From Streptomyces sp. PCS3-D2 (GTDB lineage Bacteria > Actinomycetota > Actinomycetes > Streptomycetales > Streptomycetaceae), in NCBI RefSeq assembly GCF_000612545.2, contig NZ_CP097800.1, positions 2,725,001 through 2,789,000 on the forward strand: DNA of 64,000 nt, given 5' to 3'. Numbering within the stretch: position 1 is the stretch's first letter; each line of letters begins with the position of its first letter. Positions 4,844 to 42,201 of this stretch are shown here, one piece after another. Under the pieces are notes generated by a model. It was not told where the DNA came from. It saw nothing but the letters and a program-made list of their open reading frames with translations, and did no database searches. The translations under genes and the position numbers were made by a program.

Positions 4844-4865
4844 CTGCTTCTCCCGGCCCTGACGG

Positions 4866-10033: not shown

Positions 10034-10144
10034 CGCCGCCCCGCCGCGTTCCGCACACCGTCCGCCCGTTCCCCCGTCCGGTCCGGCCGCCCCGAGGCGG
10101 GACCGGACAGGGGCGTCCCCTCATCACTCGTACCGGAGCCCTCC

Positions 10145-13637: not shown

Positions 13638-13643
13638 GAGCGG

Positions 13644-13671
13644 CCGGGATCCTCTCGCGGGAGGATCCCGG
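13644..13671. terminator. Bidirectional hairpin terminator after sdhB
   Basis: CCGGGATCCTC (13644-13654) pairs perfectly with GAGGATCCCGG (13661-13671) around a 6-nt loop. It lies between sdhB and the convergent small secreted-protein gene, so it can serve both. Confidence 0.75.
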
Positions 13672-13682
13672 ACACCGCCCGG

Positions 13683-13922
13683 TCAGCGGCCGGAGTGGTC
13701 GGTGACGTTGCCGTTGGAGCAGTGGTTGGCGTGGTCGCCCACCCAGTCGCCCATGACCGGGACCACGGCCACCTCCTGGAGGCAGACCGCGGCCGCGGTG
13801 AAGTTCCAGTTGTTGGCCGCGTTCACCCTGCCCCCGAAGTCGGAGTCGTTGTCGGCGTGGGCGGGCGCGGCGAGGCCGAGGGCGGCTGCGGCGAGCAGGG
13901 TCGCCGTCATGATCTTCTTCAT
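13683..13922 (-). CDS. Small secreted protein with two cysteines, function unknown
   Basis: A 79-residue precursor. Residues 1-23 form a Sec signal peptide (KK, hydrophobic core, AAPAHA cleavage motif). The mature part of about 56 residues has exactly two cysteines (in AAVCLQEV and NHCSNGN), probably one disulfide, and many Asn, Asp and Val. It lacks the paired Gly/Asn motifs of chaplins and does not look like a rodlin. The ATG at 13922 has only a weak ribosome site (GGCAGG). It is convergent with sdhB and divergent from the TPM-domain gene. The function is unknown; Streptomyces secretes many small proteins of this kind. Confidence 0.7.
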   Translation of the reverse strand: MKKIMTATLLAAAALGLAAPAHADNDSDFGGRVNAANNWNFTAAAVCLQEVAVVPVMGDWVGDHANHCSNGNVTDHSGR

Positions 13923-14006
13923 GGCCTGCCAACGACGGCTCCTGCGCCGGGTCACTGCCCCTTGCTCCGGATGCGGGCCCGGTGGCCCGCTCATACCCTC
14001 CCAAAT

Positions 14007-28671: not shown

Positions 28672-29747
28672 ACGCCGGGATCGGGTGTCGGTCCCTTCAT
28701 CACCTTGCTGATCCACTCCAGGGAGCCCTCCCTCATGCCGCGCACATAGGACTTTCCGTTGTGCTCTCCATCCTGGATCACCTGGAGCGAAGTGTGCACG
28801 GGGCCCTTGCCGTACTCCCTCATGAACTTCTCGGCCTGCTCGCGACCGGTCTCCTTGGTACCGATCTGGAAGTTGATGTAGACGTCGGGACCCTTGGTGT
28901 CGATCAGCTTGGCGGCGAGCTTCTCCGGATTGTTCGCGTCCATGGCCTGCGTGTTCCCCTTCCAGAGCGGGGAGTCGGGCACGATGTCGGTCCCGCTCGC
29001 GATGGCCGCCTTGAACCGGTCGGGGTACTTCAGGAGCTGCTTGAAGCCGTTGAATCCGCCGGCCGAGGAGCCCATGAAGGCCCATCCGTCGCGGGAGGTG
29101 AAGGTACGGAAATTGGCCTTCGCGAAATCGGGGACGTCATCGGCCATCCAGGTGCCCATCTTGGGCTGGCCGGGGATGTCCGATCCGTCGAAGTGGTGCT
29201 TGGTGTCGGCGTTGGTCACCGGCATGATCAGGATGAAGGGCAGGCTCCTGCCCGCCTTGGCCCCGTCGGCGACCGCCTGCTGGAGGCCGAGGCCGGGGCC
29301 CGTGCCCCAGTAGTTCGTCGGATAGCCCCGGCCGCCGGGCAGCGAGATCAGAACCGGGAAGCCGCTCCTCGCGTACCGCGGATCGTCGTACTCCTTCGGC
29401 ACCCACACCCACACGTCACCTGTGAAGCCGGACTTCTTGCCCGCGAGGGTGGTCCTGCCGATCTGGGTGCCGTCGGGCAGCCTGCTGGTGCGGACGAAGG
29501 AGGCCGCCGGGCCGGTGGGCATGAGCACCTCCGGCAGAGCCTCGGAGGCGGTGGCCGTGTTCTCCTGGACCTTGCCGAAGGAGACCGGATCTCCTATGTC
29601 CGAGAAGAGGCCGAACTTGTACGCTGCCGCGCCGCCCCCGGCGAGGGTGAGCGCGAGACCGCCGCTGATCAGAAGCAGGCGCAGGCGGTGGGGGCGACGG
29701 CTGCCCGTGGTCGTGGGGCGGCCGTCGCCTTGCTGGTCATGCTGCAC
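28668..29747 (-). CDS. Alpha/beta-hydrolase esterase, membrane-anchored (paralogue 1)
   Basis: A 359-residue protein with a short basic cytoplasmic tail, one membrane helix (LRLLLISGGLALTLAGGGAA) and an extracytoplasmic esterase domain of the esterase-D/antigen-85-like class. The nucleophile elbow is GSSAGG in DGWAFMGSSAGGFNG; a late His is in DGEHNGKSYVRGMREGS. The preceding DVWVWVPKEYDDPRYARSG and FPVLISLPGG are typical of this class. GTG 29747 is the start best supported, though its Shine-Dalgarno is weak. Its stop overlaps the downstream protease start. It is closely related to the next gene upstream (29973-31178), from which it is separated by 225 nt; they are a tandem duplication. Confidence 0.9.
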   Translation of the reverse strand: MQHDQQGDGRPTTTGSRRPHRLRLLLISGGLALTLAGGGAAAYKFGLFSDIGDPVSFGKVQENTATASEALPEVLMPTGPAASFVRTSRLPDGTQIGRTTLAGKKSGFTGDVWVWVPKEYDDPRYARSGFPVLISLPGGRGYPTNYWGTGPGLGLQQAVADGAKAGRSLPFILIMPVTNADTKHHFDGSDIPGQPKMGTWMADDVPDFAKANFRTFTSRDGWAFMGSSAGGFNGFKQLLKYPDRFKAAIASGTDIVPDSPLWKGNTQAMDANNPEKLAAKLIDTKGPDVYINFQIGTKETGREQAEKFMREYGKGPVHTSLQVIQDGEHNGKSYVRGMREGSLEWISKVMKGPTPDPGV

Positions 29748-29972: not shown

Positions 29973-31178
29973 TCAGCCCGCTGCCGGCTCGGGTGCCTTC
30001 AGCACCTTGCTGATCCACTCCAAGGAGCCTTCCTTCATGCCCCGGACGTAGTGCCAGCCGTTGTGCTCGCCGTTCTGGATGTCACGGATGGTCGTCTTGA
30101 CCGGCCCCTTGCCGTACTGCTGCTGGAACTTCACCATCCGCTCCTTCCCGGACTCCTTGGTGCCGACCTGGAAGTTGATGTAGACCTCGGGTCCCTGCGT
30201 GTCGATCAGCTTCTGGGCGAGCTTCTCCGGGTTGTTCGCGTCCATCTCCGCCTGGTGCCCCTTCCACAGCGGGGAGTCGGGGACGATCTCGCCGCCACTG
30301 GCGATGACGGCCTTGAACTTCTCCGGATGCTGCAGGACCGTCTTCATGCCGACGAACGCGCCCGAGGAGGAGCCCATGAAGGCCCAGCCGTCACGGGACT
30401 TGTAGGTACGGAAGTTGGCCTTGGTGAAGGCCGGGACGTCCTCGGCGATCCACGTACCCATCTTGGCCTGGCCGGGGATGTCGGAGCCGTCGTAGTAGTA
30501 CTTCGCGTCCGGGTTGAGCACCGGCATGATCACGATGAACGGCAGGCTGGTGCCGGCGCGGACGCCGTCGCTGATGGCCTTCTGCAGGCCGAGGCTGCGG
30601 TCGGACCAGTAGTTGGCCGGGAAGCCGTTGCCGCCGGGCAGGGCGATGAGCACCGGGAAGCCGCTCTTCGCGTACTTCGGGTCGTCGTACTCCTTGGGAG
30701 CCCACACCCACACGTCGCCTTCGAACCCGGACTTCGCGCCCGCGAGGCGGGTCTTCGCGATGATCGTGCCGTCGTCGAGCTTGGTGGTCTGCTTGAAGTC
30801 CGACTTCGGACCCGTCGGCATGAGCACGTCGGGGTCGCCGGAGGGCTTGACCTCGGCGGCCGGCGTGCCCGGTTCCGGCTTGTCCGCGGCCGGGGACGGG
30901 TTCTTGCCGAAGGTCACGGCCTCGCCGTTGCCCGAGAACCAGTCGAGCTTCCAGGCGGCGAACCCGCCGCCACCGAGGAGCAGCGCGAGGGCGACCACGG
31001 CACTGATCCCTATGCGGCGCCGGGACCGTCCGGCCTGCGGCGTCTCGTACGACGGATGCTGTTGCTGGTGCTGGTGCTGCGGATACTGGTGCTGCTGGTG
31101 TCCGCCGTGCCCCTGGGGCGGGTACTCCTGGTAGGACGGCTGGTCGTCAGGCCGCGGGCGCTGCGGGTACTGGTGCAC
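29973..31178 (-). CDS. Alpha/beta-hydrolase esterase, membrane-anchored (paralogue 2)
   Basis: A 401-residue paralogue of the downstream esterase. It has a longer cytoplasmic N-terminus rich in Gln, His, Pro and Tyr (about 1-50, HQQHQYPQHQHQQQH), then RSRRR, a membrane helix (IGISAVVALALLLGGGGFAAW) and the esterase domain. The nucleophile is in GSSSGA, the late His in NGEHNGWHYVRGMKEGS. The sequence VLMPTGP through the end aligns residue by residue with paralogue 1. GTG 31178 has GGAG 8 nt upstream. The His/Gln-rich tail could bind metal or partner proteins, but that is speculation. It is the first gene of the esterase-esterase-protease row. Confidence 0.9.
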   Translation of the reverse strand: MHQYPQRPRPDDQPSYQEYPPQGHGGHQQHQYPQHQHQQQHPSYETPQAGRSRRRIGISAVVALALLLGGGGFAAWKLDWFSGNGEAVTFGKNPSPAADKPEPGTPAAEVKPSGDPDVLMPTGPKSDFKQTTKLDDGTIIAKTRLAGAKSGFEGDVWVWAPKEYDDPKYAKSGFPVLIALPGGNGFPANYWSDRSLGLQKAISDGVRAGTSLPFIVIMPVLNPDAKYYYDGSDIPGQAKMGTWIAEDVPAFTKANFRTYKSRDGWAFMGSSSGAFVGMKTVLQHPEKFKAVIASGGEIVPDSPLWKGHQAEMDANNPEKLAQKLIDTQGPEVYINFQVGTKESGKERMVKFQQQYGKGPVKTTIRDIQNGEHNGWHYVRGMKEGSLEWISKVLKAPEPAAG

Positions 31179-31313: not shown

Positions 31314-31751
31314 TCACCTCTGGGCGTCGAGCACCTCCGCGCACCGCCCGAGCAGCTCGATGAGCAACTCCCTTTCCTCCTCGGTGAATGCGGCGGCGAG
31401 CGCCCGTTCCACCCGGACCGCACCCGCGTCCGCGAGCTCCATGACGGCGCGCCCCTCGCCGGTGAGCCGGGTCTCCAGCACGTTGCGGTGCCACTCGTGC
31501 GGGGTCCGCTCGATGAGCCCGCGCTCCTGGAGGTTCTTCAGCACGGTGTTCATGGTCGGCGGCGTCACCCCGCACAGGCGGGCGAGCGCGGCGGCGGAGA
31601 TGCCGGGTTTCTCGGCCAGCCAGAGCAGCGCGGCGTACTGCGGAACCGTTACGGCGGCCGGCTTGCAGGCCGCGTTCTTCGCCGCGAGAAGCGCCTGCTC
31701 GGCGCGCTTCACATGAGAGCCGATGCGCTCCTCGGGGGCCATGGAGGTCAT
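31314..31751 (-). CDS. MarR-family transcriptional regulator
   Basis: A 145-residue winged-helix dimer of the MarR type. Recognisable are QYAALLWLAEKPGISAAALARLCGVTPPTMNTVLKNLQERGLIERTPHE (helix-turn-helix plus wing, about 40-90) and the C-terminal dimer helices. ATG 31751 has AGGATG about 6 nt upstream; a second ATG three codons in is possible. It is divergent from a secreted SMP-30-like gene, with a 12-bp palindrome between them, so it probably represses both. The inducing ligand is unknown. Confidence 0.92.
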   Translation of the reverse strand: MTSMAPEERIGSHVKRAEQALLAAKNAACKPAAVTVPQYAALLWLAEKPGISAAALARLCGVTPPTMNTVLKNLQERGLIERTPHEWHRNVLETRLTGEGRAVMELADAGAVRVERALAAAFTEEERELLIELLGRCAEVLDAQR

Positions 31752-31778
31752 GACGGCATCCTATGACCCTTGCATTCA

Positions 31779-31790
31779 TTAGAGCTCTAA
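31779..31790. promoter_or_regulatory. Palindromic operator TTAGAGCTCTAA between marR and SMP-30 gene
   Basis: Perfect 12-bp palindrome in an AT-rich stretch within the 89-nt divergent region. MarR proteins bind such sites between divergent genes, so this is the best candidate operator. It is 28 nt upstream of the marR start and 51 nt upstream of the SMP-30 gene. Confidence 0.55.
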
Positions 31791-31840
31791 CATAGGTTCG
31801 CATTCGTTTAGTCACTAGAGGACATCCATCGGGGGATGCG

Positions 31841-32908
31841 ATGACGCGACAGACCATGCCGAAGGCACCGGCGGCGAAGAATCAGCAGGAGAGGGGGAGG
31901 CGGAAGCAGAAGGCCGCGAGGTCATTCCTGGTCGCGGCAGCGGCCGGGGTGTTCGCCCTCGGAGCGGCGGCGCCGACTCCGGCAGCGGCCGGGACGGCGG
32001 GCCCGGAGGGCGGCGACGCCCGGATTTCCACCGCCTTCTCCCTACCCGGGGCGAAGGTCTACCCGGAGGGCATTGCCGCGGACCCCCGCACGCGCACGGT
32101 CTACGTCGGCTCGTACGCGGACGGCACCATCTACCGCGCCCGGCCCGGCCGGGCGGAGGCCGAGGTGTTCCTGCCCTCCGGCACCGACGGCCGCCGCACG
32201 GCCAACGGCCTGCGGGTCGACGCCCGAGGCCGGCTGTGGGTCACGGACTCCACCACGGGCGTGGCCGTCTACGACACCGCGACCGGGACCCGGCTGGCCC
32301 ACTTCGAGGTGGCCGCGGGATCCACCGCCCGCTTCGTGAACGACCTGACCCTGACACCGGACGGCACCGCGTACCTGACCGACAGCATCCGCGGCGTGAT
32401 CTATCGCGTGACCCCGCGTCAGCTGGCCGCCGGCAGCGGCGTCCTGACCGAGGCCTACGACCTCACCCCGGCCCTGCGCCCCCGCCCGGCCGGCACCTTC
32501 GGCCTCAACGGCATCACCTCCGACAGGACGGGCCGCTACCTCCTCGCCGTCGACATGACGGCCGGCGACCTCTACCGTGTCGACCTGCGGACCGGCGCCG
32601 TCCGCCGCGTCACCCTCACCGGTGGGGACCTGAAGGCCGCCGACGGCCTCGACCTCTCCCCCGACGGCACGCTGCGGGTGGCGCACAACACCACCAACAC
32701 CCTGACCCGGTGGCGGCTCGGCGCGGACGGCACCCGCGCCAGGCTGACCCGTACGATCACGGACCCGTCCCTGCAGATCCCCACGACCCTGGCGCGCGTC
32801 CCGGGACGCGTCCTGGTGGTCCGCTCGCAGTTCGACCGGGGCGGCCCGATGAACCCCGGCTCGGGCACCCCGACCACCTTCACGGTGGCCTCGGTACGCG
32901 GCCTCTGA
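31841..32908 (+). CDS. Secreted SMP-30/gluconolactonase-like beta-propeller protein
   Basis: A 355-residue precursor with a basic N-terminus and a signal peptide ending near PTPAAAG (about residue 50). The mature part is built of repeated propeller blades (VYPEGIAADPRTRTVYVGSYADGTIYR, ANGLRVDARGRLWVTDS, FVNDLTLTPDGTAYLTDS, LNGITSDRTGRYLLAVD, ADGLDLSPDGTLRVAHN), the pattern of SMP-30/gluconolactonase or strictosidine-synthase-like proteins. A lactonase activity is possible but not shown. ATG 31841 has GGGGGATG just upstream. It is divergent from marR and probably under its control; a long hairpin follows. Confidence 0.88.
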   Translation: MTRQTMPKAPAAKNQQERGRRKQKAARSFLVAAAAGVFALGAAAPTPAAAGTAGPEGGDARISTAFSLPGAKVYPEGIAADPRTRTVYVGSYADGTIYRARPGRAEAEVFLPSGTDGRRTANGLRVDARGRLWVTDSTTGVAVYDTATGTRLAHFEVAAGSTARFVNDLTLTPDGTAYLTDSIRGVIYRVTPRQLAAGSGVLTEAYDLTPALRPRPAGTFGLNGITSDRTGRYLLAVDMTAGDLYRVDLRTGAVRRVTLTGGDLKAADGLDLSPDGTLRVAHNTTNTLTRWRLGADGTRARLTRTITDPSLQIPTTLARVPGRVLVVRSQFDRGGPMNPGSGTPTTFTVASVRGL

Positions 32909-32917
32909 CCGCGGAGC

Positions 32918-32968
32918 GGAAACCCGGGCCCCGAGTCCCGCAGCTCGGGACCCGGGGCCCGGGTTTCC
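32918..32968. terminator. Long bidirectional hairpin terminator
   Basis: Arms 32918-32940 and 32946-32968 pair over 23 bp with a single mismatch around a 5-nt loop. It lies between the SMP-30 gene and the convergent HAAS/PadR operon, 4 nt from the stop codon of the latter. Confidence 0.8.
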
Positions 32969-32972
32969 GCCG

Positions 32973-33536
32973 TCAGGCCTCGACGGCGGCGTTCCTACGG
33001 GCCCGTACGTCGGCGACGGCGTACGGCAGCCCGGGAAGCAGCAGGAGCGGGGGCGCCCACAGGGGCAGTGTGAACAGTGTGGCGTCGCCGGCGATCCGAC
33101 TGATGAGGATGGCCGCGGGCAGCGCGACGCAGATACCGAGCAGCCAGCTCCGCAGCAGGCCCAGACTGCCCCGGCGCAGCTCCCAGGCGACGGTGACCGT
33201 GCCGAGAACCGCCCAGAAGGCGACGTTGCCGGCGGTCACATCCAGCTGCGTGGTCCAACGGGTCAGGAACGGCATGAGGAGGACCCAGCCGGCGATGAAA
33301 CAGCCGATGGAGGCCGCGCGCAGCAGCCGGCGCGGGAACGGTGCGCGCGCCCGGGCCCAGGCCGCGGCGAAGGTGCGTACGTCGGGGCCGACGACGTCCC
33401 GCGCGGTGCGGCCCGCGGCCTCCGCGTCCTCCAGGTGTGCGGAGAGCTCGTCGAGCATCTCCCGCACGGACGCGTCGTCGATCCCGCGGTACTCCCAGTT
33501 GCTGCGGCAGGCGGCGATTATCTGCGCGTTCGTCAT
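32973..33536 (-). CDS. HAAS-domain membrane protein paired with PadR
   Basis: A 187-residue membrane protein. The N-terminus (about 1-60, MTNAQIIAACRSNWEYRG through LDELSAHLEDAEAAGRTARDVVG) is a helical HAAS-type signalling domain that commonly accompanies PadR regulators. Four to five hydrophobic segments follow (RLLRAASIGCFIAGWVLLMPF, VAFWAVLGTVTVAWEL, SWLLGICVALPAAILI, LPLWAPPLLLLPGLPYAV). The ATG at 33536 overlaps the padR stop by 4 nt (ATGA). The pair is thought to sense or adjust envelope state, but the function of this protein is unknown. Confidence 0.85.
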   Translation of the reverse strand: MTNAQIIAACRSNWEYRGIDDASVREMLDELSAHLEDAEAAGRTARDVVGPDVRTFAAAWARARAPFPRRLLRAASIGCFIAGWVLLMPFLTRWTTQLDVTAGNVAFWAVLGTVTVAWELRRGSLGLLRSWLLGICVALPAAILISRIAGDATLFTLPLWAPPLLLLPGLPYAVADVRARRNAAVEA

Positions 33537-33913
33537 GACGTGTTCTCCCCCGTGAAGGGCGTGGCGGTGGTCAGGATCCGGCCTACCGGTCCGGCGAAGG
33601 CGTGCCAATCGGCCCGGCCGCGGCCGAGTTCGGCCCGCCCTGCCTCGGTCAGCCGGTAGTACTTGCGCGGGGCGCCGCCGGTCGGGGACGGCGCGCGGTA
33701 CGAGGAGATGAGCCCCGCCCGCTCCATCCGGGCGAGCAGCGGATAGATGCTGCCGTCACTGACCAGCTCCAGCCCGTGGGCGGCGAGCGCCTCGGCGAAC
33801 TCGAATCCGTACCTGGGCCGTTCGGCGATGAGCGACAGCAGGCAGAGGTCGAGTACTCCGCGCAGGAGCTGGCTGCGCCGCTGGTCATCGGTCGCCGACC
33901 GCTCCTTTGTCAT
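33533..33913 (-). CDS. PadR-family transcriptional regulator
   Basis: A 126-residue winged-helix regulator. The conserved core is LLRGVLDLCLLSLIAERPRYGFEFAEALAAHGLELVSDGSIYPLLARMERAGLISSYR ... GGAPRKYYRLTEAGRAEL. ATG 33913 is the natural start. No Shine-Dalgarno precedes it, but a TATCTT box (33926-33921) lies 7 nt upstream with a TTGCGA box (33949-33944) 17-18 nt before it, so the transcript is probably leaderless. An inverted repeat covers the promoter, so autorepression is likely. The downstream HAAS-type gene overlaps by 4 nt. Confidence 0.93.
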   Translation of the reverse strand: MTKERSATDDQRRSQLLRGVLDLCLLSLIAERPRYGFEFAEALAAHGLELVSDGSIYPLLARMERAGLISSYRAPSPTGGAPRKYYRLTEAGRAELGRGRADWHAFAGPVGRILTTATPFTGENTS

Positions 33914-33920
33914 GCGACAC

Positions 33921-33941
33921 AAGATAGTGGGCGACTATCTT
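33921..33941 (-). promoter_or_regulatory. PadR operator overlapping a leaderless promoter
   Basis: AAGATAGT (33921-33928) and ACTATCTT (33934-33941) form a perfect 8-bp inverted repeat with a 5-nt spacer, starting 7 nt upstream of the padR ATG and covering the -10 box. A second small repeat, CTTGC/GCAAG (33940-33952), covers the -35 box. Confidence 0.65.
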
Positions 33942-34014
33942 GCATCGCAAGGTAGCGGGATCCGGGGCCGGACGGCGGCGGGAGGGCGGCGGGCACCCGG
34001 GGGAGCCTGGGGGC

Positions 34015-34623
34015 CTACCTGGGCGCGGCGACCTTGCGGGTGGCGGAACGCATCACCAGGGCCATCACCACTTCGAACACGCCGAGCAGGACGAGCCACA
34101 ACCCCAGCAGGCGCGTCAGGGCGACCGCGGAGTCCACCGGGAAGCAGAGCACGACGATTCCGGCCACGGTGCCGAGGGCACCCAGACCGAAGAGCAGGCC
34201 CCGGTGGACGAGGAGGCGGTCGGCGATCGAGACGTAGGCCGTGAGCAGCCCGGTGATCAGCCAGAACACTCCGACGATCAGGGAGAGCGCGCCGATCGTC
34301 TGCATCGGATGGCGCAGGACGAGGACGCCGGCGAGGAAGGCCAGGACCGCGATCAGCACGCTCGCCAGCCTGCTGCCTCCGGCGTCGTTGCTGTGCGAGA
34401 AGGCTCCGACGAAGCGGAACCCGCCCGCCACCAGGAGCTGCAATCCGATGATCACGGCCAGGATGTGCAGCGTCTCGTCCGGCCAGACGAGCACGAGGAT
34501 GCCCGGGATCAGGGTGGCGAGGGCGACACCGAGCGCCCAGTGCCAGGAGCTCCCGAGTTGGTTGAGCGTGTCCTCGGGATCGTGCTGCGCGCGCTGCGGT
34601 GCCGCGTCGGGATGTACGGACAT
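34015..34623 (-). CDS. HdeD/DUF308-family membrane protein
   Basis: A 202-residue membrane protein with six hydrophobic segments arranged as three repeated pairs, typical of DUF308/HdeD (WALGVALATLIPGILVLVWPDETLHILAVIIGLQLLVAGGFR is the hallmark unit). The N-terminal 25 residues are soluble. The family is linked to acid resistance in enteric bacteria; the role in Streptomyces is unknown. ATG 34623 has GGGAGG about 5 nt upstream and is preferred to upstream in-frame starts. It stands alone beside the accessory island. Confidence 0.87.
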   Translation of the reverse strand: MSVHPDAAPQRAQHDPEDTLNQLGSSWHWALGVALATLIPGILVLVWPDETLHILAVIIGLQLLVAGGFRFVGAFSHSNDAGGSRLASVLIAVLAFLAGVLVLRHPMQTIGALSLIVGVFWLITGLLTAYVSIADRLLVHRGLLFGLGALGTVAGIVVLCFPVDSAVALTRLLGLWLVLLGVFEVVMALVMRSATRKVAAPR

Positions 34624-34745
34624 CACGCCTCCCGGACCCACCTGGAGTATCTTTACGCCCATTTTATTCCGGAACTTCCCATCCCGCGGCTGCACCGTCG
34701 GCGCACCAGCCTGCCGGGACACACGCAGGTGGCTAGGGTGACGGC

Positions 34746-35027
34746 GTGAGCGGACCGGACAGCATGTGGTTCGACGCCTCGGCCGCGCACGCCTTCCGGC
34801 GCCTGGTCACCACGGCCGTCGAGTACGCGCGCCGCGACCCGGGGACCCGGGCGGAAGTCCAACGCGTCGAGACACCCGGCCGGTCCCCGCGAAAGCGCCG
34901 GTGGCCTCGGCCTGACGTTCCTGGGACTTGCCGGCTTCCTCCTTCGGCCGCTCGGCCGTCCCAGCGCCCCGAGGAGATCGGCTACGGCCATGTGGTCGAG
35001 CGCTACACGCGCACCGGCCTGACCTGA
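34746..35027 (+). pseudogene. Truncated ORF at the left edge of the accessory island
   Basis: GTG 34746 is preceded by TAGGGT 7 nt upstream (possible -10 of a leaderless transcript, or a ribosome site). The first about 40 codons (SMWFDASAAHAFRRLVTTAVEYARRDPGTRAEV) use G/C at nearly every third position, as real Streptomyces genes do. After about 34870 the pattern is lost, and the frame runs through Pro/Arg-rich sequence to a stop at 35027. I read it as the 5' end of a resident gene cut off by the island. No family is recognised. Confidence 0.4.
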
Positions 35028-35760
35028 CCCATGCGGTGGGCCGTGCCACCGCCTGATGTTCGATGGTCGGCTTGATCTGGGGTTCGCGGATGACGACGAC
35101 GGAGGCGGCCTGCATGTTGAGGCCGACGCCCGCTGCCTGGATCTGCCCCCGGGAGCACCGCCGGGCCCTGGACACCGGCGAAGTCGTCGACGATCTCTTG
35201 GCGACGCTGGGCCGGGACGCCGCCGGTCAGCGGACCGAACACCGGAGTGGTCCTGGAGGGTCCGGCCGCGAGGGCCTTCTTCACCACGCCCAGTACGTCC
35301 TTGAAGTTGGAGAAGACCACCGTCTTCTGCCCGTTCTCGCCGGCCTCCTGAACGATCTCCCGGAGCCGGTCCAGCTTGGCCGACTTTTCAGGGCGCATGT
35401 AGGCGGCCCTGCGCATGGCCATGACGTTGCCCGCGCGTACGGCTTCGCGGTACGCCTCCTCGTCCGAAGCGCTCAGCTCCTCCCACTCGTCGGCCTGCTG
35501 AAGGCTCGGGAGTTCCGTCAGCACGTCCTCCTGGTTGCGCCGCAGATAGACCGGGGCCACTGCCTTGCGGAAGGCGACCGATCCGGCCAGCGCGTCCCGT
35601 TCGCCGAGGGCGTCCGCGACGTCGCCGTCGAGCCCCCGTCGGTGACGTCCTGCAGCCGGGCGACGGGAATGGCGTCGAGCTCCCGCTTCACCGCCGCATC
35701 GTGGATCGGCTTCAGTGCCGCCCGTACCGCCTCCGCCGCCCTGGCGTGGTCACCGACCAC
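35008..35760 (-). pseudogene. SNF2-family helicase remnant with three frameshifts
   Basis: Read leftward, the remnant starts with GDHARAAEAVRAALKPIHDAAVKRELDAIPVARLQDV. It shifts frame near 35630 to AFRKAVAPVYLRRNQEDVLTELPSLQQADEWEEL and EKSAKLDRLREIV..GENGQKTVVFSNFKDVLGVV. It shifts again near 35160 to QIQAAGVGLNMQAASVVVIREPQIKPTIEHQAVAR, and once more near 35045 to AHRMGQVRPVRV. These are motifs IV-VI of SNF2 helicases in the right order. The N-terminal ATPase lobe is absent and all C-terminal sequence after motif VI is lost. It cannot make an active enzyme. Confidence 0.85.
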
Positions 35761-36019
35761 TGCCTGCGCCGCCTCGTGGAGTCACGCTCCCCTCGCGACG
35801 GTGTCCCGTTCGCCACGCCCCACGCTTCCCGCCCCTCTCTCGCAGTCCCCGCATCCTCCCACCACCCCCGCCGGCAGTGGTGCGTTGACCCGTACGGCCT
35901 TGGAGCGCTGAAACAAGGGCGAGCTCCACGACGCGGCAGTTCCTCGGCCGGACCCACGAGGGCAACCCCACCGCCCGAAACCCGCCCCGACCTCCGCCAT
36001 ACCGCGCTATGGTGTCAGT

Positions 36020-36286
36020 ATGGCTACCAAGAAGGTGACGATCACTCTCGACGAATCCCTGGTGGACGCCCTGGCCGGCGCAGCCGAGGAGGAGGGCATC
36101 CCGCTCTCCCGGCTCGTCGCCGGAGCAGCCGAACGAGAGTTGCGACTGCGGGCCGGGCGGGCGGTGATCCAGCAGTGGCAGGCGGAGCACGGCGCCTTCA
36201 CCCCGGAGGAGCTCGCCAACGCGCGCGCCGAGATGGCCGACGCCGATGCCGAGTACCTCAGCGGCACGCGGGCATCGTCCGCGTGA
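36020..36286 (+). CDS. vapB: VapB-like ribbon-helix-helix antitoxin
   Basis: An 88-residue antitoxin. Residues 1-35 (KKVTITLDESLVDALAGAAEEEGIPLSRLVAGAAE) match a ribbon-helix-helix DNA-binding domain. The rest is an acidic, helical toxin-binding tail. ATG 36020 has no good Shine-Dalgarno, but TATGGT lies 7-12 nt upstream, which would give a leaderless message. Its stop overlaps the toxin start (GTGA). It should neutralise the PIN toxin and repress the pair. The 35.76-36.02 kb stretch before it holds no gene that I recognise. Confidence 0.88.
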   Translation: MATKKVTITLDESLVDALAGAAEEEGIPLSRLVAGAAERELRLRAGRAVIQQWQAEHGAFTPEELANARAEMADADAEYLSGTRASSA

Positions 36287-36675
36287 ACATCCCCTACCTG
36301 TACGACGCCGGTGCGCTGATCGCCATCGACAACGACGACCGGCGCATGTGGGCTCGCCACAGCCTGGCTCTCGAAGACGGCAGGGACATCCACGTGCCTT
36401 CCGTGGTCGTCAGCCAGGCATGGCGGGACTCCCGGCGGCAGGTCAGGCTCGGCAAGTTCCTCGCGGGGTGCCATGTCGCACCCGTGGGCTTCGAAACCGC
36501 CAAGGCCGCGGGCATCCTCTGCGGCAAGGCCGGCACCGCAGACATCGTCGACGCCACCGTCGTCGTCATGGCTGCCAGTCTCGGGGCGATCATCTGGACC
36601 TCCGACCCGTACGACATCCGCGCCCTCATCGACGCCCAGGACGTCAAGCCCGCTCCCGTCATCCGCGCTGTCTGA
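36283..36675 (+). CDS. vapC: VapC-like PIN-domain ribonuclease toxin
   Basis: A 130-residue PIN-domain toxin, a Mg-dependent RNase that typically cuts tRNA or rRNA. Candidate acidic active-site residues are D8 (YLYDAGALIAID), D87 and D90 (TADIVDATVVV) and D108 (WTSDPYDIRAL), in the usual order. GTG 36283 overlaps the antitoxin stop by 4 nt. The gene ends 11 nt before the first copy of the 57-bp repeat. The pair is complete, so the module may be functional. Confidence 0.9.
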   Translation: MNIPYLYDAGALIAIDNDDRRMWARHSLALEDGRDIHVPSVVVSQAWRDSRRQVRLGKFLAGCHVAPVGFETAKAAGILCGKAGTADIVDATVVVMAASLGAIIWTSDPYDIRALIDAQDVKPAPVIRAV

Positions 36676-36686
36676 CCTCCGAAGGT

Positions 36687-36743
36687 CTGCGGACTCCTGC
36701 GGACAGCAGGGCGGCCTGACCGGCGTTCTCGCAGGTCAGGCCG
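36687..36743 (+). repeat. 57-bp repeat, copy 1 (type a)
   Basis: Begins CTGCGGACTCCTGCGGACAG and ends CTCGCAGGTCAGGCCG; about 82% identical to copies at 38003-38059 and 39951-40007, all exactly 57 bp and in the same orientation. It contains a doubled TGCGGAC and an inverted repeat CTGACC..GGTCAG. Unlike the other copies it is not followed by the ychF-like 15-bp core. Confidence 0.85.
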
Positions 36744-36745
36744 AC

Positions 36746-36853
36746 CCTGACCTGCGGCGGAGCCCCGCGCAGGGCCCTGACCAGGCATTTCTCCGTTGGC
36801 GTGTGTTGGGTCCCGACGGTGCCTTACGGGTGTCCTGCGGACTGTCTGCGGAC
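36746..36853 (+). repeat. 108-bp repeat, copy 1 (type b)
   Basis: Begins CCTGACCTGCGGCGGAGC and ends CTGCGGAC; the copy at 38108-38215 is the same length and closely similar. Here it directly follows the type a repeat with a 2-nt gap, whereas at 38.0 kb the two are separated by 48 nt that contain the 15-bp core. Confidence 0.85.
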
Positions 36854-36857
36854 GGGC

Positions 36858-37420
36858 CTACGGGGTCTCGACGGAGTCGAGGTGCCCGCACAGCTCCGCG
36901 GCGATGCCTTCGTCGCGCCCCCTCGGCAGGCAGCGGCCACCAGTGCTGCTCGCCGTTCGCCACAGCGAGGCTGCTCGCGAACCAGACGAGGTGGGGTGCA
37001 GGCACGAAGGAGCCCCGGAGCCACCGCGTGAAAACAGCGGCTCCGCCAGCCTTCACATCGGTCAGGGTGATATAGGCATAGTCGGGCTGAGGCATCGACG
37101 CCATCCCGTCGATCCATACGCCGGGTGCCGGCTCGATCTCAAAATCGAGGACGGGAACGCTGTGGATGGCCGAGATCCGGTACTCCACGATGGGCTCAGG
37201 GAATGCCTCCCGCAGAGCCCTCTCCGGGGGACTCGGCAGTGGCACGCCATGCTCCGCCGTCGCCCTGAGGCGGGTAGAAGGCGAAACTGGTGCGGATGTT
37301 CCGTTCAGTGGGCACGGTCTCCCTCTGCCCCACGACACGTATCGCATCGAGCCGCGCGTACCCGACATCACCCAGCCCGCCGTCGTAGCCGTTGGCTCCG
37401 TACATAGGCGACGAGTGCAT
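36858..37420 (-). pseudogene. Frameshifted remnant(s) of one or two unknown genes
   Basis: Leftward frames look natural in sections. An upstream section (about 37420-37200) reads MYGANGYDGGLGDVGYARLDAIR and NIRTSFAFYPPQGDGGAWRA. A second (GTG 37245 with GGAG upstream) reads PPERALREAFPEPIVEYRISA, VLDFEIEPAPGVWIDGM, YAYITLTDVKAGGAAVFTRW and NGEQHWWPLPAEG. Near 36920, at a run of G in GAGGGGGCG, the sense continues in another frame as EGIAAELCGHLDSVETP and stops with TAG at 36858. So at least one frameshift breaks the gene. No family is recognised. Confidence 0.55.
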
Positions 37421-37430
37421 GCGATCGCGT

Positions 37431-37440
37431 TGTGTACACA
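37431..37440. promoter_or_regulatory. Palindrome TGTGTACACA upstream of the Phd/RelE-type module
   Basis: Perfect 10-bp palindrome 24 nt upstream of the antitoxin start. Phd/YefM antitoxins bind sites with a TGTACA-type core, so this is a likely autoregulatory operator. Confidence 0.6.
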
Positions 37441-37464
37441 TGGCACACTCGGTACCCTTGAGGC

Positions 37465-37734
37465 ATGACTCAGCCGCTGCCCATAGAGTCCATCCGCGAC
37501 GTACGCGCCCACTTGGCCGAAGTCGTCGAACGGGCCGACCGCGACGACGTGCCCACTGTCATCACCCGTCGCGGAAAGCAGGTCGCCGCCGTGGTCTCGA
37601 TCGAGGTGCTGCGCAAGTACCAGGAGTGGGAAGAGCGTGAGATCAACCGCATCATCGACGAGCGCATGGCGAGCCCGGCCGTCGGCGTCCCGATCGAGGA
37701 CGTGATGAGGGAGACGCTGGCACGCAGTGAGTGA
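37465..37734 (+). CDS. Phd/YefM-family antitoxin
   Basis: An 89-residue antitoxin. The N-terminal DNA-binding part IESIRDVRAHLAEVVERADRDDVPTVITRRGKQVAAVVS is typical of Phd/YefM. The C-terminal part is acidic and helical and should wrap the toxin. ATG 37465 has GAGG about 4 nt upstream. It overlaps the RelE-type toxin gene by 8 nt. A palindromic operator lies upstream. Confidence 0.92.
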   Translation: MTQPLPIESIRDVRAHLAEVVERADRDDVPTVITRRGKQVAAVVSIEVLRKYQEWEEREINRIIDERMASPAVGVPIEDVMRETLARSE

Positions 37735-37990
37735 CTATCGCACGGTGTTCCGGCCCGAGGCCCAGGCCGAACTGCGCAAGATCCCGCGTGACATGGCGCT
37801 TCGCATCCTGGCCAAACTGACAGAGCTGGAGAGCGACCCCTTCGGCTTCAACACCACGGCACTCGTATCCCAGCCCGAGCGCCGCCGCCTACGGGTCGGC
37901 GACTACCGCGTCGTCTACACGATCGACAACGGGGAGCTGGTGGTGTGGGTCGTACACGTCGGACACCGCTCCACGGTCTACGACACGTAG
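37727..37990 (+). CDS. relE: RelE/ParE-superfamily toxin
   Basis: An 87-residue toxin of the RelE fold (YRTVFRPEAQAELRKIPRDMALRILAKLTELESDPFG, then RRRLRVGDYRVVYTID and VVWVVHVGHRSTVYDT). The basic residues of the C-terminal sheet, including the RVGDYRVVY arginines expected in ribosome-dependent mRNases, are present. GTG 37727 lies inside the antitoxin gene end. It is followed 13 nt later by the second copy of the 57-bp repeat. The module appears intact. Confidence 0.92.
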   Translation: MSDYRTVFRPEAQAELRKIPRDMALRILAKLTELESDPFGFNTTALVSQPERRRLRVGDYRVVYTIDNGELVVWVVHVGHRSTVYDT

Positions 37991-38002
37991 CCGCTCCCAG
38001 CT

Positions 38003-38059
38003 CTGCGGACTGTCGCGGACAGCAGAAGGGCCTGACTTGCATCCTCGCAGGTCAGGCCG
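38003..38059 (+). repeat. 57-bp repeat, copy 2 (type a)
   Basis: Same length and orientation as copies 1 and 3, about 82% identical to each. It contains the doubled CGGAC motif and the inverted repeat CTGACTTGC..GCAGGTCAG. The ychF-like 15-bp core follows 20 nt later. Confidence 0.85.
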
Positions 38060-38078
38060 CGTCTGGATACGCGATGAG

Positions 38079-38093
38079 ACGTTGAAGCGGAAT
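38079..38093. repeat. att-like core, distal copy
   Basis: ACGTTGAAGCGGAAT, identical to the last codons of ychF at 41117-41131 and in the same orientation. Read leftward it gives F-R-F-N-V, but the stop codon of ychF is replaced by TCA. It lies within the 48-nt stretch between type a and type b repeats. Confidence 0.7.
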
Positions 38094-38107
38094 GCCTAAA
38101 GCCCGAT

Positions 38108-38215
38108 CCTGACCTGCGGCGGAGCCCCGCGCAGGGACCTGACCTGGGATTTCGTGGTTTGCGTGCGTTGGCTCCCGACGGCCGTTGGCGGGTGTCCTGC
38201 GGACTGGCTGCGGAC
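38108..38215 (+). repeat. 108-bp repeat, copy 2 (type b)
   Basis: Same length as the copy at 36746-36853, with the same ends (CCTGACCTGCGGCGGAGC ... CTGCGGAC). It lies between the att-like core and the CPCC-type fragment. Confidence 0.85.
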
Positions 38216-38244
38216 TGGCCGGGCGGGCGGAGGCCGAGAAATCC

Positions 38245-38436
38245 ATGACGCACCGGCGGGACGACAAGGAGACTGCCCAGGTGGGCGACCGCTACCCCTG
38301 CCCATGCTGCGGACACCCCGCGCTGAGCACGATGCCCGGCTCGTACGAGATCTGCCCCATCTGCTCCTGGGACGGGGTCCAGCTCCGCCGGCCATGGGTA
38401 GCGGAGCGAGCAACAAGTTGCGCGTGCCCTGAGTGC
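38245..38436 (+). pseudogene. CPCC-family cysteine-rich protein, degenerate 3' end
   Basis: ATG 38245 (GAGAAATCC and GGAGG upstream) starts a frame with GDRYPCPCCGHPALSTMPGSYEICPICSWDGVQL, the hallmark of CPCC-type small Cys-rich proteins, probably metal-binding. After GVQLRRP the expected family sequence (a segment with GGANK) is found only in another frame as MGSGASNK, and the original frame drifts into unrelated sequence. It is therefore a broken or truncated gene. The function of the family is unknown; it often occurs near toxin-antitoxin or phage-like regions. Confidence 0.5.
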
Positions 38437-38488
38437 GCCTGTTCCGCACCGCCCATCGTGACTGATTCGGCAGTTTCGCGAGTTGCTC

Positions 38489-39625
38489 TCAGTGCGTGTA
38501 CGGATCAGCCAGCGCCAACGGCGTCCGGGCCGCTTCCAGAGCCGACCCCGGAAAGGCGGGGCCGACGGTGTAGAAGCGGGCACGGGTGCGGCCGACCGGT
38601 GTCAGGACCTCGCCCGCGACCAGGTCCCGCAGGTCGCGTTGGGCCCGCTGCAGGCTCAGGTCCTCCGTTCGTTCGTAGCGTGTACGACGCACCCGTCCGG
38701 ACATCGCCACATCATGCAAGGCGGAAACCACCCTCTCGTCCAGCCCCCGGCCCTCCGCGAACTCACCCAGCAGGAGCCACACCCGACTCGAACGATCCAG
38801 GCGATTGCGTACGGCCTGCGCTTGCTGGTGGTAAGCGGTGAGGTTGAAACGGATCCAATCGGAGACGTCCTGGTCGGGGCGGTAGGTGGCCCCCCGACGC
38901 TGCAACTCGCGGTAGTACTCCCAGGTATTGCCGGGGCGCCCCAGCCAAGCCTCGATCGAGGAGAACTCGGGAGCCAGTTCTCCCTGTCTCGCGATCATGA
39001 GCGTTTGGAGAGATCGGGACATGCGGCCGTTGCCATCCGCCCATGGATGGATGGCAACAAGGTGGAGATGCGCCATGGCGGCCCGCACCAGCGGGTGCGG
39101 GCCGTCGTCCGTGTTCAGCCATTCGACCAGTTCACCCGTCAACGCAGGCACCTCGGCTGCGTCCGGTGCCGCATATGCCGCGATGCTGGGGTCGCGGGCG
39201 TCTGTCACGTACACCGCTCCACGGCGCCACTGACCGGCCGGCTTCCGCGGGGTGTGGCGGTGTCCCTGCAGCATCCAGTGGAGCGCATTGAGCAGCTCCT
39301 TGCTGTACCGGAAGTCCGCGACGTCATGCAACGTCTGGATATAGGTCATCATCCGCTGATAGGCCAGCGTCTCCTCGCGATCCTCCTCGGAGACGTCGAC
39401 ATCCCGCTCGCCCTCCAGCAGGTCCTCGACGTCGACCGTGGACACTCTGAAGCCCTCGATCGAGTTGGAGGCCGCCACCGCATCGGCGGTCAAGAACTTG
39501 CGCAGCCCTTCGGTCCACTTCACCGGAGCGGACCGGACCTGGAGGCGCAACGAGCGACGAAGATCTTCGATCTCGCCGAGAACGCGCTGATCCTCGGCGG
39601 TGAGAGCGGGTGTGGGGAAGAGCAT
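38489..39625 (-). CDS. Fic-domain protein (putative AMP-transferase)
   Basis: A 378-residue Fic protein. The catalytic motif is HPWADGNGR (about 193-201), with Trp instead of the usual Phe. The N-terminal inhibitory helix motif SNSIEG (about 53-58, S-x3-E-G) is present, so it is a self-inhibited class II Fic. The Fic_N region is followed by the Fic core and a C-terminal winged-helix-like part (RTEDLSLQRAQRDLRDLVAGEVLTPVGRTRARFY). It probably transfers AMP from ATP to a protein; the target is unknown. ATG 39625 is chosen because a good -35/-10 promoter would start transcription at or next to it (leaderless); an in-frame ATG at 39652 lies inside the promoter. It is flanked by att-like cores at 38.08 and 40.03 kb. 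Confidence 0.93.
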   Translation of the reverse strand: MLFPTPALTAEDQRVLGEIEDLRRSLRLQVRSAPVKWTEGLRKFLTADAVAASNSIEGFRVSTVDVEDLLEGERDVDVSEEDREETLAYQRMMTYIQTLHDVADFRYSKELLNALHWMLQGHRHTPRKPAGQWRRGAVYVTDARDPSIAAYAAPDAAEVPALTGELVEWLNTDDGPHPLVRAAMAHLHLVAIHPWADGNGRMSRSLQTLMIARQGELAPEFSSIEAWLGRPGNTWEYYRELQRRGATYRPDQDVSDWIRFNLTAYHQQAQAVRNRLDRSSRVWLLLGEFAEGRGLDERVVSALHDVAMSGRVRRTRYERTEDLSLQRAQRDLRDLVAGEVLTPVGRTRARFYTVGPAFPGSALEAARTPLALADPYTH

Positions 39626-39631
39626 GCCCTC

Positions 39632-39667
39632 ACCATAGATTGACGCAAACATTACGTCAATGCGTCA
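39632..39667 (-). promoter_or_regulatory. Promoter and operator of the fic gene
   Basis: On the minus strand, TTGACG (39660-39655), a 17-bp spacer and TATGGT (39637-39632) form a near-consensus promoter 7 nt from the ATG at 39625. The half-site TGACG occurs at 39641-39645 on the plus strand and its complement CGTCA at 39655-39659 and 39663-39667, so an operator with three half-sites overlaps the -35 and spacer. Confidence 0.7.
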
Positions 39668-39950
39668 GTATGCATCGACACCTCTTTGTCGATCCCTCAC
39701 CGGAACGACAAAGAGGTCGAGCTCGCAAGAAGGGCAGGGGCGGCAGCCTGCTCCTCGATGGCGGCACGGCTGGTGAGAGACGGGGCCAGACCACGGTCAT
39801 GGCGCCCATGAGCGCCACTCGCCATGCGAACGCCGAGGCGACCGAACGAGCATCTACCATCAACCAGGACCCGGTGTTGCGACGGCCGGTTGAGTCCGGG
39901 CCGCTGCCGCGGTCCGAATGCACAATGCAGCCAGGCCAGGTCGAACCGCT

Positions 39951-40007
39951 CTGCGGACTGTTGCGGACAGCGCGACGGTCTGACTCGCGTTCCCGCAGGT
40001 CAGGCCG
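39951..40007 (+). repeat. 57-bp repeat, copy 3 (type a)
   Basis: Same length and orientation as the copies at 36687 and 38003. The att-like core follows 19 nt later, as in copy 2. No type b repeat follows. Confidence 0.85.
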
Positions 40008-40026
40008 CCTCCATACATGCGATCAG

Positions 40027-40041
40027 ACGTTGAAGCGGAAT
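40027..40041. repeat. att-like core with displaced ychF 3' end
   Basis: ACGTTGAAGCGGAAT, identical to 41117-41131 in ychF. Read leftward, the codons are TTC CGC TTC AAC GTC TGA, that is F-R-F-N-V-stop, as at the natural end of ychF. This is what a displaced gene end looks like after integration of an element at the 3' end of a gene. Confidence 0.75.
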
Positions 40042-40088
40042 CTCCAACGCGGAGCTTCCACCTGTGGAAACACGGTTCCCGCAGGCGC

Positions 40089-40117
40089 ATCCAGCACCGA
40101 TCCAGCACGGTGCAAGG
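40089..40117 (+). repeat. Double ATCCAGCAC repeat, left copy
   Basis: 29 bp with two direct ATCCAGCAC units 11 bp apart. It matches 41003-41031 with three differences. It is 47 nt inside the left att-like core, the sort of place where integrase arm-type sites lie. Assignment as arm sites is inference. Confidence 0.6.
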
Positions 40118-40381
40118 TCACCCAGCACCCGCGACCGCGACACGGAATCCACCCACCGCCACCGGTCGAGGGCACCCTGAGGGAGGCGCTGGTCGGCGGT
40201 GGATGAGTACCGGACCGCCAGCCATTCAGCGACTCTCCATTTCGCCACACGAATGGTTGAACCGGAACTCGGCTACAGCGGAACTGAACGTCGAACGCAG
40301 GGATCCCCCCTGCGAAAACCGAGGCTAAAGTAGGCCATCCCCGCATGGGAGAGACGCCCCAGCACACCGGACACTCACCGA

Positions 40382-40636
40382 TCAGTAGTGATACCGGGCA
40401 GCGAGAATGACGATCTCCTTTTCCGTCACCAGATAGACGAGGCGGTGCTCTTCGTCGATCCGTCGTGACCAGGCCCCAGGCAGGTGATACTTCAGCGGCT
40501 CCGGCTTGCCGATGCCAGTGAACGGATCACGCCTGAGATCTTCGATGAGCTTGTTGATCCGGGCGAGCATCTTGCGGTCGCTCTTGAGCCAGGACGTGTA
40601 GTCCTCCCAGCCCTGATCCTCGAAGACGAGCCTCAC
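40382..40636 (-). CDS. yoeB: Txe/YoeB-family mRNA interferase toxin
   Basis: An 84-residue RelE-fold toxin. The family pattern is complete: RLVFEDQGWEDYTSWLKSDRKMLARINKLIEDLRRDPFTGIGKPEPLKY, then GAWSRRIDEEHRLVYLV and the C-terminal ILAARYHY with the catalytic His-Tyr end. YoeB toxins bind the ribosome and cut mRNA. The ATG at 40636 overlaps the antitoxin stop by 4 nt. The only genes between the att-like cores at 40027 and 41117 are this and its antitoxin. Confidence 0.96.
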   Translation of the reverse strand: MRLVFEDQGWEDYTSWLKSDRKMLARINKLIEDLRRDPFTGIGKPEPLKYHLPGAWSRRIDEEHRLVYLVTEKEIVILAARYHY

Positions 40637-40914
40637 GCGGCACCCGCACCTGCGTCCGGTGACTCGGGGTCGATCAGCTCACGCTCCGACACGTTGATGT
40701 GCGACAGGGCGTTCTCGTACGCCTTGAGTAGCCGCCGGGCGTTCGCTGGCGAGCGCAGCAGGTAGGACCCCTCGCGCAGCGCCGTGTAGTCCTCGGCCGA
40801 GACAAGCACCGCGTTGCCGTGCTTGGAGACGATCTCGATGGCCTCATGGTTCTCGTTGACCTTTTTGATCAACGGAAACAGTTCCTTGCGGGCTTCACTC
40901 GCGGTGATGGACAT
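40633..40914 (-). CDS. yefM: YefM-family antitoxin
   Basis: A 93-residue antitoxin. The N-terminal MSITASEARKELFPLIKKVN and EIVSKHGNAVLVSAEDYTALREGSYLLRSPANA are family hallmarks; the tail (ELIDPESPDAGAGAA) is short and acidic. ATG 40914 has GGGAGGG 8 nt upstream. It should bind YoeB and, together with it, repress the operon through the inverted repeat at 40934-40957. Confidence 0.96.
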   Translation of the reverse strand: MSITASEARKELFPLIKKVNENHEAIEIVSKHGNAVLVSAEDYTALREGSYLLRSPANARRLLKAYENALSHINVSERELIDPESPDAGAGAA

Positions 40915-40933
40915 GACTTCAACCCTCCCATCA

Positions 40934-40957
40934 AGTGGTACTCAATAACGTACCACT
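40934..40957 (-). promoter_or_regulatory. yefM-yoeB operator
   Basis: AGTGGTAC (40934-40941) and GTACCACT (40950-40957) are perfect 8-bp inverted arms with an 8-nt AT-rich spacer. They begin 20 nt upstream of the yefM start, where the promoter should be. The GTAC core fits the YefM class. Confidence 0.7.
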
Positions 40958-41002
40958 CTTGGTGTCATCCGAGAGGGGAAATGGCCGATGGTCGCTCAGC
41001 TG

Positions 41003-41031
41003 ATCCAGCACCCATCCAGCACGGGGAAAGG
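41003..41031 (+). repeat. Double ATCCAGCAC repeat, right copy
   Basis: Matches 40089-40117 with 3 differences in 29 bp, in the same orientation. It is 85 nt inside the right att-like core. Between it and ychF a degenerate CTGACCTGC..CATCAG inverted repeat (about 41067-41091) echoes the end of the type a repeat. Confidence 0.6.
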
Positions 41032-41112
41032 CTAGGGGCCCACCTCCGGAGAGGTGAACCCCATCTGACCTGCATTTTTGCCACATCAGCGACGTGGTGT
41101 TTCCTCATCCGC

Positions 41113-42201
<1,089 letters not shown>

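Follow-up and report, generated by a model that had tools for sequence, protein, structure and literature searches.

In a 64,000-nucleotide stretch of Streptomyces sp. PCS3-D2 (NZ_CP097800.1, positions 2,725,001 to 2,789,000; hereafter the window), the end of the gene ychF coincides with a 15-bp sequence, ACGTTGAAGCGGAAT, that occurs three times, at 38079–38093, 40027–40041, and 41117–41131, each time on the plus strand. A sequence-only reading of this DNA had placed three same-orientation copies on the downstream side of ychF, and all three proved exact. It had also judged the triple match to be beyond chance, which is borne out by the 0.04 matches expected at two or fewer mismatches and by the failure of any of 100 shuffled sequences to reach three. 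With up to one mismatch, the 15-mer has 3 sites in its own 7,628,241-base genome, all behind ychF; it is thus not common across the genome outside ychF, an outcome that the same reading had named as one that would speak against it. The features at this gene end are as follows.

41113–42201, minus strand: ychF, the presumed target gene, whole (362 amino acids plus stop, start taken at VSLTIG; translation VSLTIGIVGLPN ... VEFRFNV stop)
41117–41131, plus strand: core 1, the last codons of ychF and the putative attachment core on the ychF side (exact 15-mer)
40027–40041, plus strand: core 2, a displaced gene end reading F-R-F-N-V-stop (exact 15-mer; open reading frame 40023–40367, minus strand)
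38079–38093, plus strand: core 3, stop codon lost, with TGAG at the position of the stop triplet (exact 15-mer)
36684–36858, plus strand: a fourth junction, where a left and a right arm are fused and the core is deleted (repeat families D3 and D4)

The frame at core 2 is the one in which the 40027 copy had been said to read F-R-F-N-V and then a stop, as it does. The repeats extend past the 15-mer into flanking arms: 103 bp at 38000–38102 are 80% alike to 39948–40050, with a weaker copy (60%) at 36684–36786 (family D3), and 121 bp at 38100–38220 are 84% alike to 36738–36858. No core-like 15-mer was found at the fourth junction at two or fewer mismatches. The earlier list of copies therefore stands for the three exact cores and had missed the fourth junction and the arm repeats. 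No tRNA or tmRNA gene that might serve as the integration target lies within the window.

Outward from ychF, the island consists of four tandem units, carrying YoeB/YefM, Fic, Phd/RelE, and a ribbon-helix-helix (RHH)/PIN pair with a helicase remnant, respectively. Their arms fall into two classes, class I having GCGGAC pairs and class II CAGCAC pairs.

34689–41131, no strand: whole island, from host flank to ychF, ending in the ychF core (relative L227 is collinear to 34688 and again from 41115)
40042–41116, no strand: unit 1, class II arms, YoeB/YefM cassette (ATCCAGCA pairs at 40089/40100 and 41003/41014)
40382–40636, minus strand: YoeB toxin (PF06769, 1.9e-40; TIGR02116, 7e-38)
40633–40914, minus strand: YefM antitoxin (PF02604, 2.5e-13)
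38094–40026, no strand: unit 2, class I arms, Fic cassette (TGCGGAC pairs at 38198/38209 and 39952/39962)
38489–39652, minus strand: Fic-domain protein (PF02661, 7.3e-16; PADLOC SoFic, 3e-43)
36742–38078, no strand: unit 3, class I arms, Phd/RelE cassette, outer core lost (TGCGGAC at 36836/36847 at one end and 38004 at the other)
37465–37734, plus strand: Phd-type antitoxin (TIGR01552, 8e-11)
37727–37990, plus strand: RelE/ParE-type toxin (TIGR02385, 6e-7)
34689–36741, no strand: unit 4, decayed, with helicase remnant and RHH/PIN pair (left arm D3 from 36684)
36020–36286, plus strand: RHH-type antitoxin-like protein (PF07878, 2.9e-4, below cut-off)
36283–36675, plus strand: PIN-like toxin candidate (PF01850, 5e-4; 21.1 bits, cut-off 23.6)

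Units 1 and 2 keep both cores and arms, the motif pairs near both ends of unit 1 being 11 bp apart, and unit 3 has lost one core. An outer end of unit 4 was not found in core and arm searches of the window. Within unit 4, 35000–35868 (minus strand) is 80–87% identical to two pieces of a 742-amino-acid helicase of L048 (genomes and loci are denoted here by L numbers), one member of whose cluster is SNF2-type by Pfam. The G+C content per kb is 61–71% in the island and 72–75% in the flank at 32–34 kb.

In L227, the relative closest to the window by flank, collinearity spans window positions 31314–34688 (83.5% identity) and resumes at 41115 (98.5%). The window island, about 6.4 kb, is thus absent from L227. 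The sequence-only reading had named, as an outcome that would speak against it, relatives showing the segment at 38–41 kb as ancestral and no empty-site variants; this outcome did not occur. An island-free relative was found, as that reading had suggested looking for; a truly bare ychF site was not, because L227 carries 1.65 kb of its own there. We do not claim a perfect empty/filled pair, since both L227 and L235 carry other DNA at ychF. L231 differs from L235 by one additional unit of 899 bp, but the left arm of L231 has changed as well. In a chosen, non-random set of 70 genomes, core 1 was the point at which homology ended in most pairs: of 2415 pairs, 1833 had alignments through ychF that ended at a distance of 0–8 bp from it, 504 at 9–150 bp, and 78 farther off. 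On the control side, ppgK was retained in all 28 genomes with sufficient sequence. In the 3 kb downstream of ychF, even the most widespread gene family reached at most 12 of 62 genomes, the commonest families being mostly toxin–antitoxin genes, and the distance to ychF of two host anchor genes ranged from 1.6 to ~16 kb for one and from 2.9 to 17 kb for the other.

Across the genus, the exact 15-mer was present in 48 of 393 genomes (own included) and a variant ending in C in 286 of 393; at least two copies of either form anywhere in the genome were counted by hand in 77 of 393, with linkage to ychF checked for part of these. For each of the 47 other genomes with the exact 15-mer, up to 20 kb was fetched, and ychF was present in 27 of these stretches and not found in 20. 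Among the 27, the 15-mer lay downstream of a ychF with a differing core of its own in 22 and formed the ychF end in 5. The two forms differ at the 15th base, which is C in 66 of 72 ychF sites and T in 55 of 79 internal cores; this change is synonymous because it falls at the third base of a Glu codon. The ychF of the window itself (41117–41131) ends with the element-type base (Glu GAA, not GAG), as do 6 of the 72 ychF cores, possibly the trace of an exchange beyond the usual point of crossover. A class I right-arm pattern with the core matched 40 stretches across the genome collection, every one titled Streptomyces.

Internal cores also retain the form of a gene end. A Val-plus-stop ending was present at 64 of the 79 internal cores, where 3 in 64 would be expected. 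A perfect stem of at least 7 pairs was seen in the left arm at 41 of the 70 sites in ychF and at 35 of the 80 internal ones, compared to 4 of 80 for right arms and 6 of 150 for shuffled sequences (the totals of 70 and 80 differ slightly from 72 and 79 because ychF sites were recognised differently). RNA folding of three window left arms against 200 shuffles gave z scores of −2.6, −3.2, and 0.0, the first two arms thus being more stable than almost every shuffled sequence and the third not. Together, the Val-plus-stop endings and left-arm stems indicate that integrating elements supply a new gene end for ychF.

The sequence-only reading had proposed a search for integrase-bearing elements beside the core, and such elements were found in other Streptomyces. 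A tyrosine integrase was a recurrent protein cluster beside cores and comprised two families, IntA and IntB, both PF00589 integrases and ~25% identical to each other. At 90% or higher identity over the whole query, IntB had 7 homologues in 256 genomes, one being from the query's own genome and one having an internal stop; in all 7, a core lay 116–117 bp 3′ of the gene in the same orientation, 2 of these cores having 1 mismatch. Among 17 distant IntB homologues (42–45% identity), none had a core at two or fewer mismatches in the 3.4–4.1 kb fetched, and homologues at 60% and 53% identity likewise had none. Four partial IntB matches had loci: the core was 244 and 406 bp from the aligned piece in two, absent in one, and present in the fourth (L134), where the best alignment was a 29% match. 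For IntA, a core with 0–1 mismatch lay within 200 bp 3′ of the gene, in the opposite orientation, at 10 of 30 loci, several of which come from one genome; the core was farther off at 3, had 2 mismatches at 2, and was absent at 15. An integrase thus adjoins the attachment site in other genomes, and IntA and IntB are absent from the window's own units, no trace of either being detected in a search of the window with both at E ≤ 1.

L240 contains a complete 17.8-kb IntB element between cores at 1271 and 19055, in which, among the selected proteins scanned, a MobA/VirD2-type relaxase, a DUF3631 protein, and a helix-turn-helix protein adjoin the integrase. In L061, an IntA element at ychF carries a DNA methylase and, beside the integrase, a small HTH_17 protein, a common form of excisionase. 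A phage or plasmid origin of the integrases was considered and set aside: at 1e-30, plasmids gave 5 matching records for IntB and 0 for IntA, and phages 50 and 4, respectively, all below 60% identity. The sole IMG/VR contig with core and arm (L226, 64 kb) is likewise not taken as evidence of a phage, with no structural gene among the 8 proteins scanned. It has two IntA genes (3021–4200 and 12869–14163) ~9 kb apart, one beside a ychF-type core; a group II intron reverse transcriptase separates the two, an AIPR protein lies outside them, and the contig looks more like a defence island than a phage.

The arms connect the units to these integrases. Class I units match the arm repeats of IntB and class II units those of IntA, and the motifs within pairs are most often 11 bp apart (39 of 61 GCGGAC spacings; for CAGCAC the commonest value, with 51 spacings). 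Spacing of 11 bp is found in the arm sites of phage-type integrases. We analysed 57 core-bounded segments, of which 43 could be classified at both ends: 19 were I–I, 14 II–II, 8 I–II, and 2 II–I, so the two ends agreed in 33 of 43 (p = 3.7e-4). The two sides of a single core, by comparison, were alike in arm class in 13 cases (6 + 7) and unlike in 30 (10 + 20), a deviation in the opposite direction (p = 0.026). At class I right arms, we also observed recurrent units with Cys-rich CPCC proteins (10 of 57 segments) and DUF6000 proteins (5 of 57), as in L240 (1057–3215), L053, L054, L058, L066, and L070.

We considered whether plain homologous recombination or tandem duplication, rather than site-specific integration, made the three repeats in the window. 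The arms, at 80–84% likeness, are possible recombination targets, but the contents of the units are unrelated, for which reason local duplication was rejected as the source of the repeats; the arms of unit 1 differ from those of the other units, and integrases lie beside the core elsewhere. This adjacency largely refutes the recombination or duplication account, which we regard as very improbable.

We conclude that the last codons of ychF are very probably the chromosomal attachment site (attB) of Streptomyces integrative elements, which stack there while ychF is kept whole, and that ACGTTGAAGCGGAAT forms the core of an attachment site for tyrosine integrases. The claim of the sequence-only reading, that DNA integrates at the ychF 3′ end, is supported by the integrases beside the core, the island-free L227, the core breakpoints in 70 genomes, and the displaced Val-plus-stop ends. 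The small units that lack IntA and IntB, their mostly toxin–antitoxin cargo, the two arm classes, and the lack of a close resident integrase go beyond that reading. Cores, arms, integrase adjacency, breakpoints, and horizontal transfer of cargo are apparent at the level of sequence, and the insertions were probably catalysed by IntA and IntB. In the mechanism we propose, a circular element would be joined through its 15-bp core to that of ychF by a tyrosine integrase. The last base of the final Val codon, the stop codon, and often a hairpin would come from one of the element's arms; because the arm supplies the Val base and stop, ychF would stay whole, and the old gene end would be displaced outward behind the new element. 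Repeated insertions would stack same-orientation units, of which the window would hold four, with IntA and IntB using the same core but different arm repeats.

Several observations weigh against this interpretation. The IntA family is mixed in specificity, 17 of 30 loci having no core at 0–1 mismatch in the fetched stretch. The strain's own genome has no close IntA or IntB (the best IntA match is 26% identical, and IntB has none at 1e-60), so mobility of the window units cannot be shown here. Arms were unlike in 10 of the 43 classified segments and 14 of 57 segments were unclassifiable; a looser motif gave counts of 24, 10, 6, and 0 in 50 segments, and the exact counts are thus motif-dependent. 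Because of common ancestry among the sites, the counts of stop codons, breakpoints, and arms do not represent independent observations. Units lacking an integrase could also be shuffled by homologous recombination between arms and cores. Finally, 28 of 35 further ychF loci had no second core at three or fewer mismatches in the stretch examined, a set chosen for a single exact C-ending core and hence biased against arrays (40 regions were fetched, and L091, L099, L111, L113, and L124 were dropped for want of a ychF match).

A toxin or Fic gene was present in 35 of the 57 core-bounded segments. Of the 19 segments shorter than 1.3 kb, 17 held a toxin–antitoxin-like pair, weakly annotated in 8 of these 17 (PIN-like protein, Pfam E 0.1); comparison of the PIN-like proteins with PDB sequences gave only chance-level matches. 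PIN-like units of 992–1004 bp recur between cores in L033, L057, L065, L067, L074, and L120. RelE/ParE and ychF trees from 21 genomes reject each other (p-AU, from the approximately unbiased test, of 4e-12 and 2e-9), as do trees of a second PIN-like pair and ychF from 10 genomes (p-AU 3e-11 and 1e-12). The RelE/ParE-type toxin of the window has a 100% identical protein in L048, whose ychF DNA is 87.5% identical. At the level of the whole cassette, identity to L048, L051, L054, and L055 is 96–98% (ychF 86–88%), and identity to L125, L069, and L078 is 86–90% (ychF 94–95%). The cassette was more alike than ychF in 42 of 136 genome pairs for RelE and 7 of 15 for YoeB; it was less alike in the remaining RelE and YoeB pairs, the sole Fic pair, and 2 of 3 RHH/PIN pairs, consistent with a faster-changing gene. 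One Phd/RelE pair occurs in both arm classes (L231, L234, L072, and L090 compared to the window, L054, and L069), and cargo seems, from these sequences, to have been swapped between arms. A Uma2-family gene, which may be another cassette, lies next to ychF or to the cassette there in L227 (4456–4938; PF05685, 2.7e-20), L235 (~2905–3510), and L231 (1763–2368).

Searched for IntA and IntB only, the 57 segments contained a complete gene in 2, pieces in 4, and neither in 51. Two accounts of the integrase-less units can be given within the site-specific model. In the first, the units still move in trans through the IntA or IntB of a co-resident element, as in an integron-style collector, a reading we consider doubtful. 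The ychF end would then be an open collector of minimal circles, each consisting of one attachment site with arms and a toxin–antitoxin pair; we advance this proposal tentatively. Two distant integrase families would have converged on one 15-bp gene end, and each unit would bring a fresh stop and often a terminator, a picture that is possible rather than probable. The rarity of IntA and IntB genes in the segments fits movement in trans, as do the repeated finding, across genomes, of small core-bounded units similar in size and content, the retention of arms and cores in units without an integrase, and the rejection of the ychF tree by the cargo trees. The integrase scan covered only these two families, however, and no circle, excision, or transfer was observed; the units could also have spread by homologous recombination from ychF outward or en bloc with a larger element, and the RelE/ParE pair in both arm classes points to swapping of cargo inside arms.

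In the second account, which we think somewhat probable, the units decayed in place: they would be dead remnants of larger mobilizable elements, of the type known as cis-mobilizable elements (CIMEs), which a tandem element can mobilize in cis; the toxin–antitoxin pair would resist deletion, and later elements would land on top. An origin by internal deletion is supported by L043 and L045, where C-terminal pieces of IntB adjoin cores, and complete larger elements exist, such as the 17.8-kb L240 element with its relaxase; in the window, unit 4 has a helicase remnant and a lost core. Decay requires repeated identical deletions to explain a shared short core-bounded unit, unless the short form itself spread. 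Integrase-less units probably derive from larger elements by internal deletion, and toxin pairs probably help them persist.

The kind of system is already known: it is tandem accretion of site-specific elements, as in CIMEs and in PAISt at bacA. PAISt of Streptomyces turgidiscabies uses a tyrosine recombinase, the bacA 3′ end, and an 8-bp palindromic core, has modules of 105 and 569 kb, and was likened by its authors to an integron (PMC4057263). The ychF array resembles it in the use of a Streptomyces protein-gene 3′ end and an internal third copy of the gene end, with modular excision in PAISt and tandem insertion (PMC4057263). Unlike PAISt, which has an on-board integrase, the array combines a 15-bp core and two integrase families with units, mostly of 0.5–4 kb, that lack IntA and IntB. 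CIMEs lack integration and transfer genes, keep both att sites, and are stacked with other elements at one gene end, and in accretion of integrative and conjugative elements (ICEs) and integrative and mobilizable elements (IMEs), very different integrases can share one site (PMC5704250). The ychF units are similarly att-bounded and stacked at one gene end; neither IntA nor IntB was found in 51 of 57 segments, with other integrases and transfer genes searched in part. Unlike CIMEs, many ychF units are 0.8–1.2 kb long, have a toxin–antitoxin pair as sole recognised cargo, and recur across species.

A survey of actinomycete integrative and conjugative elements (AICEs) describes tandem arrays at one site as unstable and the great majority of tyrosine-integrase AICEs as residing in tRNA genes; actinobacterial tyrosine integrases and insertion at a gene 3′ end are common to AICEs and the ychF elements (PMC3218068). 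The ychF elements differ in their target, and the IntB element has a MobA/VirD2-type relaxase. Hallmarks of AICEs are FtsK/TraB-type double-strand transfer and a Rep initiator. Streptococcus pneumoniae phages and satellites share the ychF neighbourhood, but their 26-bp site is intergenic and upstream of ychF, not in its 3′ codons. Integrons gather small cassettes at one site, often with toxin–antitoxin cargo, by means of the IntI integrase and attC sites. Compared by site features, the ychF array is integron-like as a small-cassette array at one site and unlike integrons in its phage-type arms and its core within a host gene. Among the papers listed for ychF, we found no report of its 3′ end as a Streptomyces integration site, and among those listed for cassettes, accretion, and toxin–antitoxin islands no such array; subscription papers mostly, and bioRxiv wholly, lay outside the scope of both searches. 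What is new is the target, ychF, the fact that two integrase families share it, and the minimal toxin–antitoxin units.

For a genus of great practical importance, the ychF end offers a frequent hotspot with sharply defined boundaries. IntA and IntB, with a predicted chromosomal target not found in the literature searched, might serve as integration vectors, and the natural series of minimal toxin–antitoxin units allows a direct test of selfish stabilization of mobile DNA. In other genomes, more extensive defence cargo adjoins this core, as with the DNA methylase of L061 and the bacteriophage exclusion (BREX) genes of L060, where ychF is outside the stretch. In L060, the stretch at 1634–11889 starts at a core with a class II right arm and encodes BrxH, BrxD, PglZ, and BrxC; its other end and ychF lie beyond the fetched DNA, and L036 and L079 are alike by cluster. 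Away from the island, the window contains tandem paralogous stretches ~1300 bp apart and 76–79% alike, 28690–28989 matching 29992–30291 and 29307–29534 matching 30606–30833.

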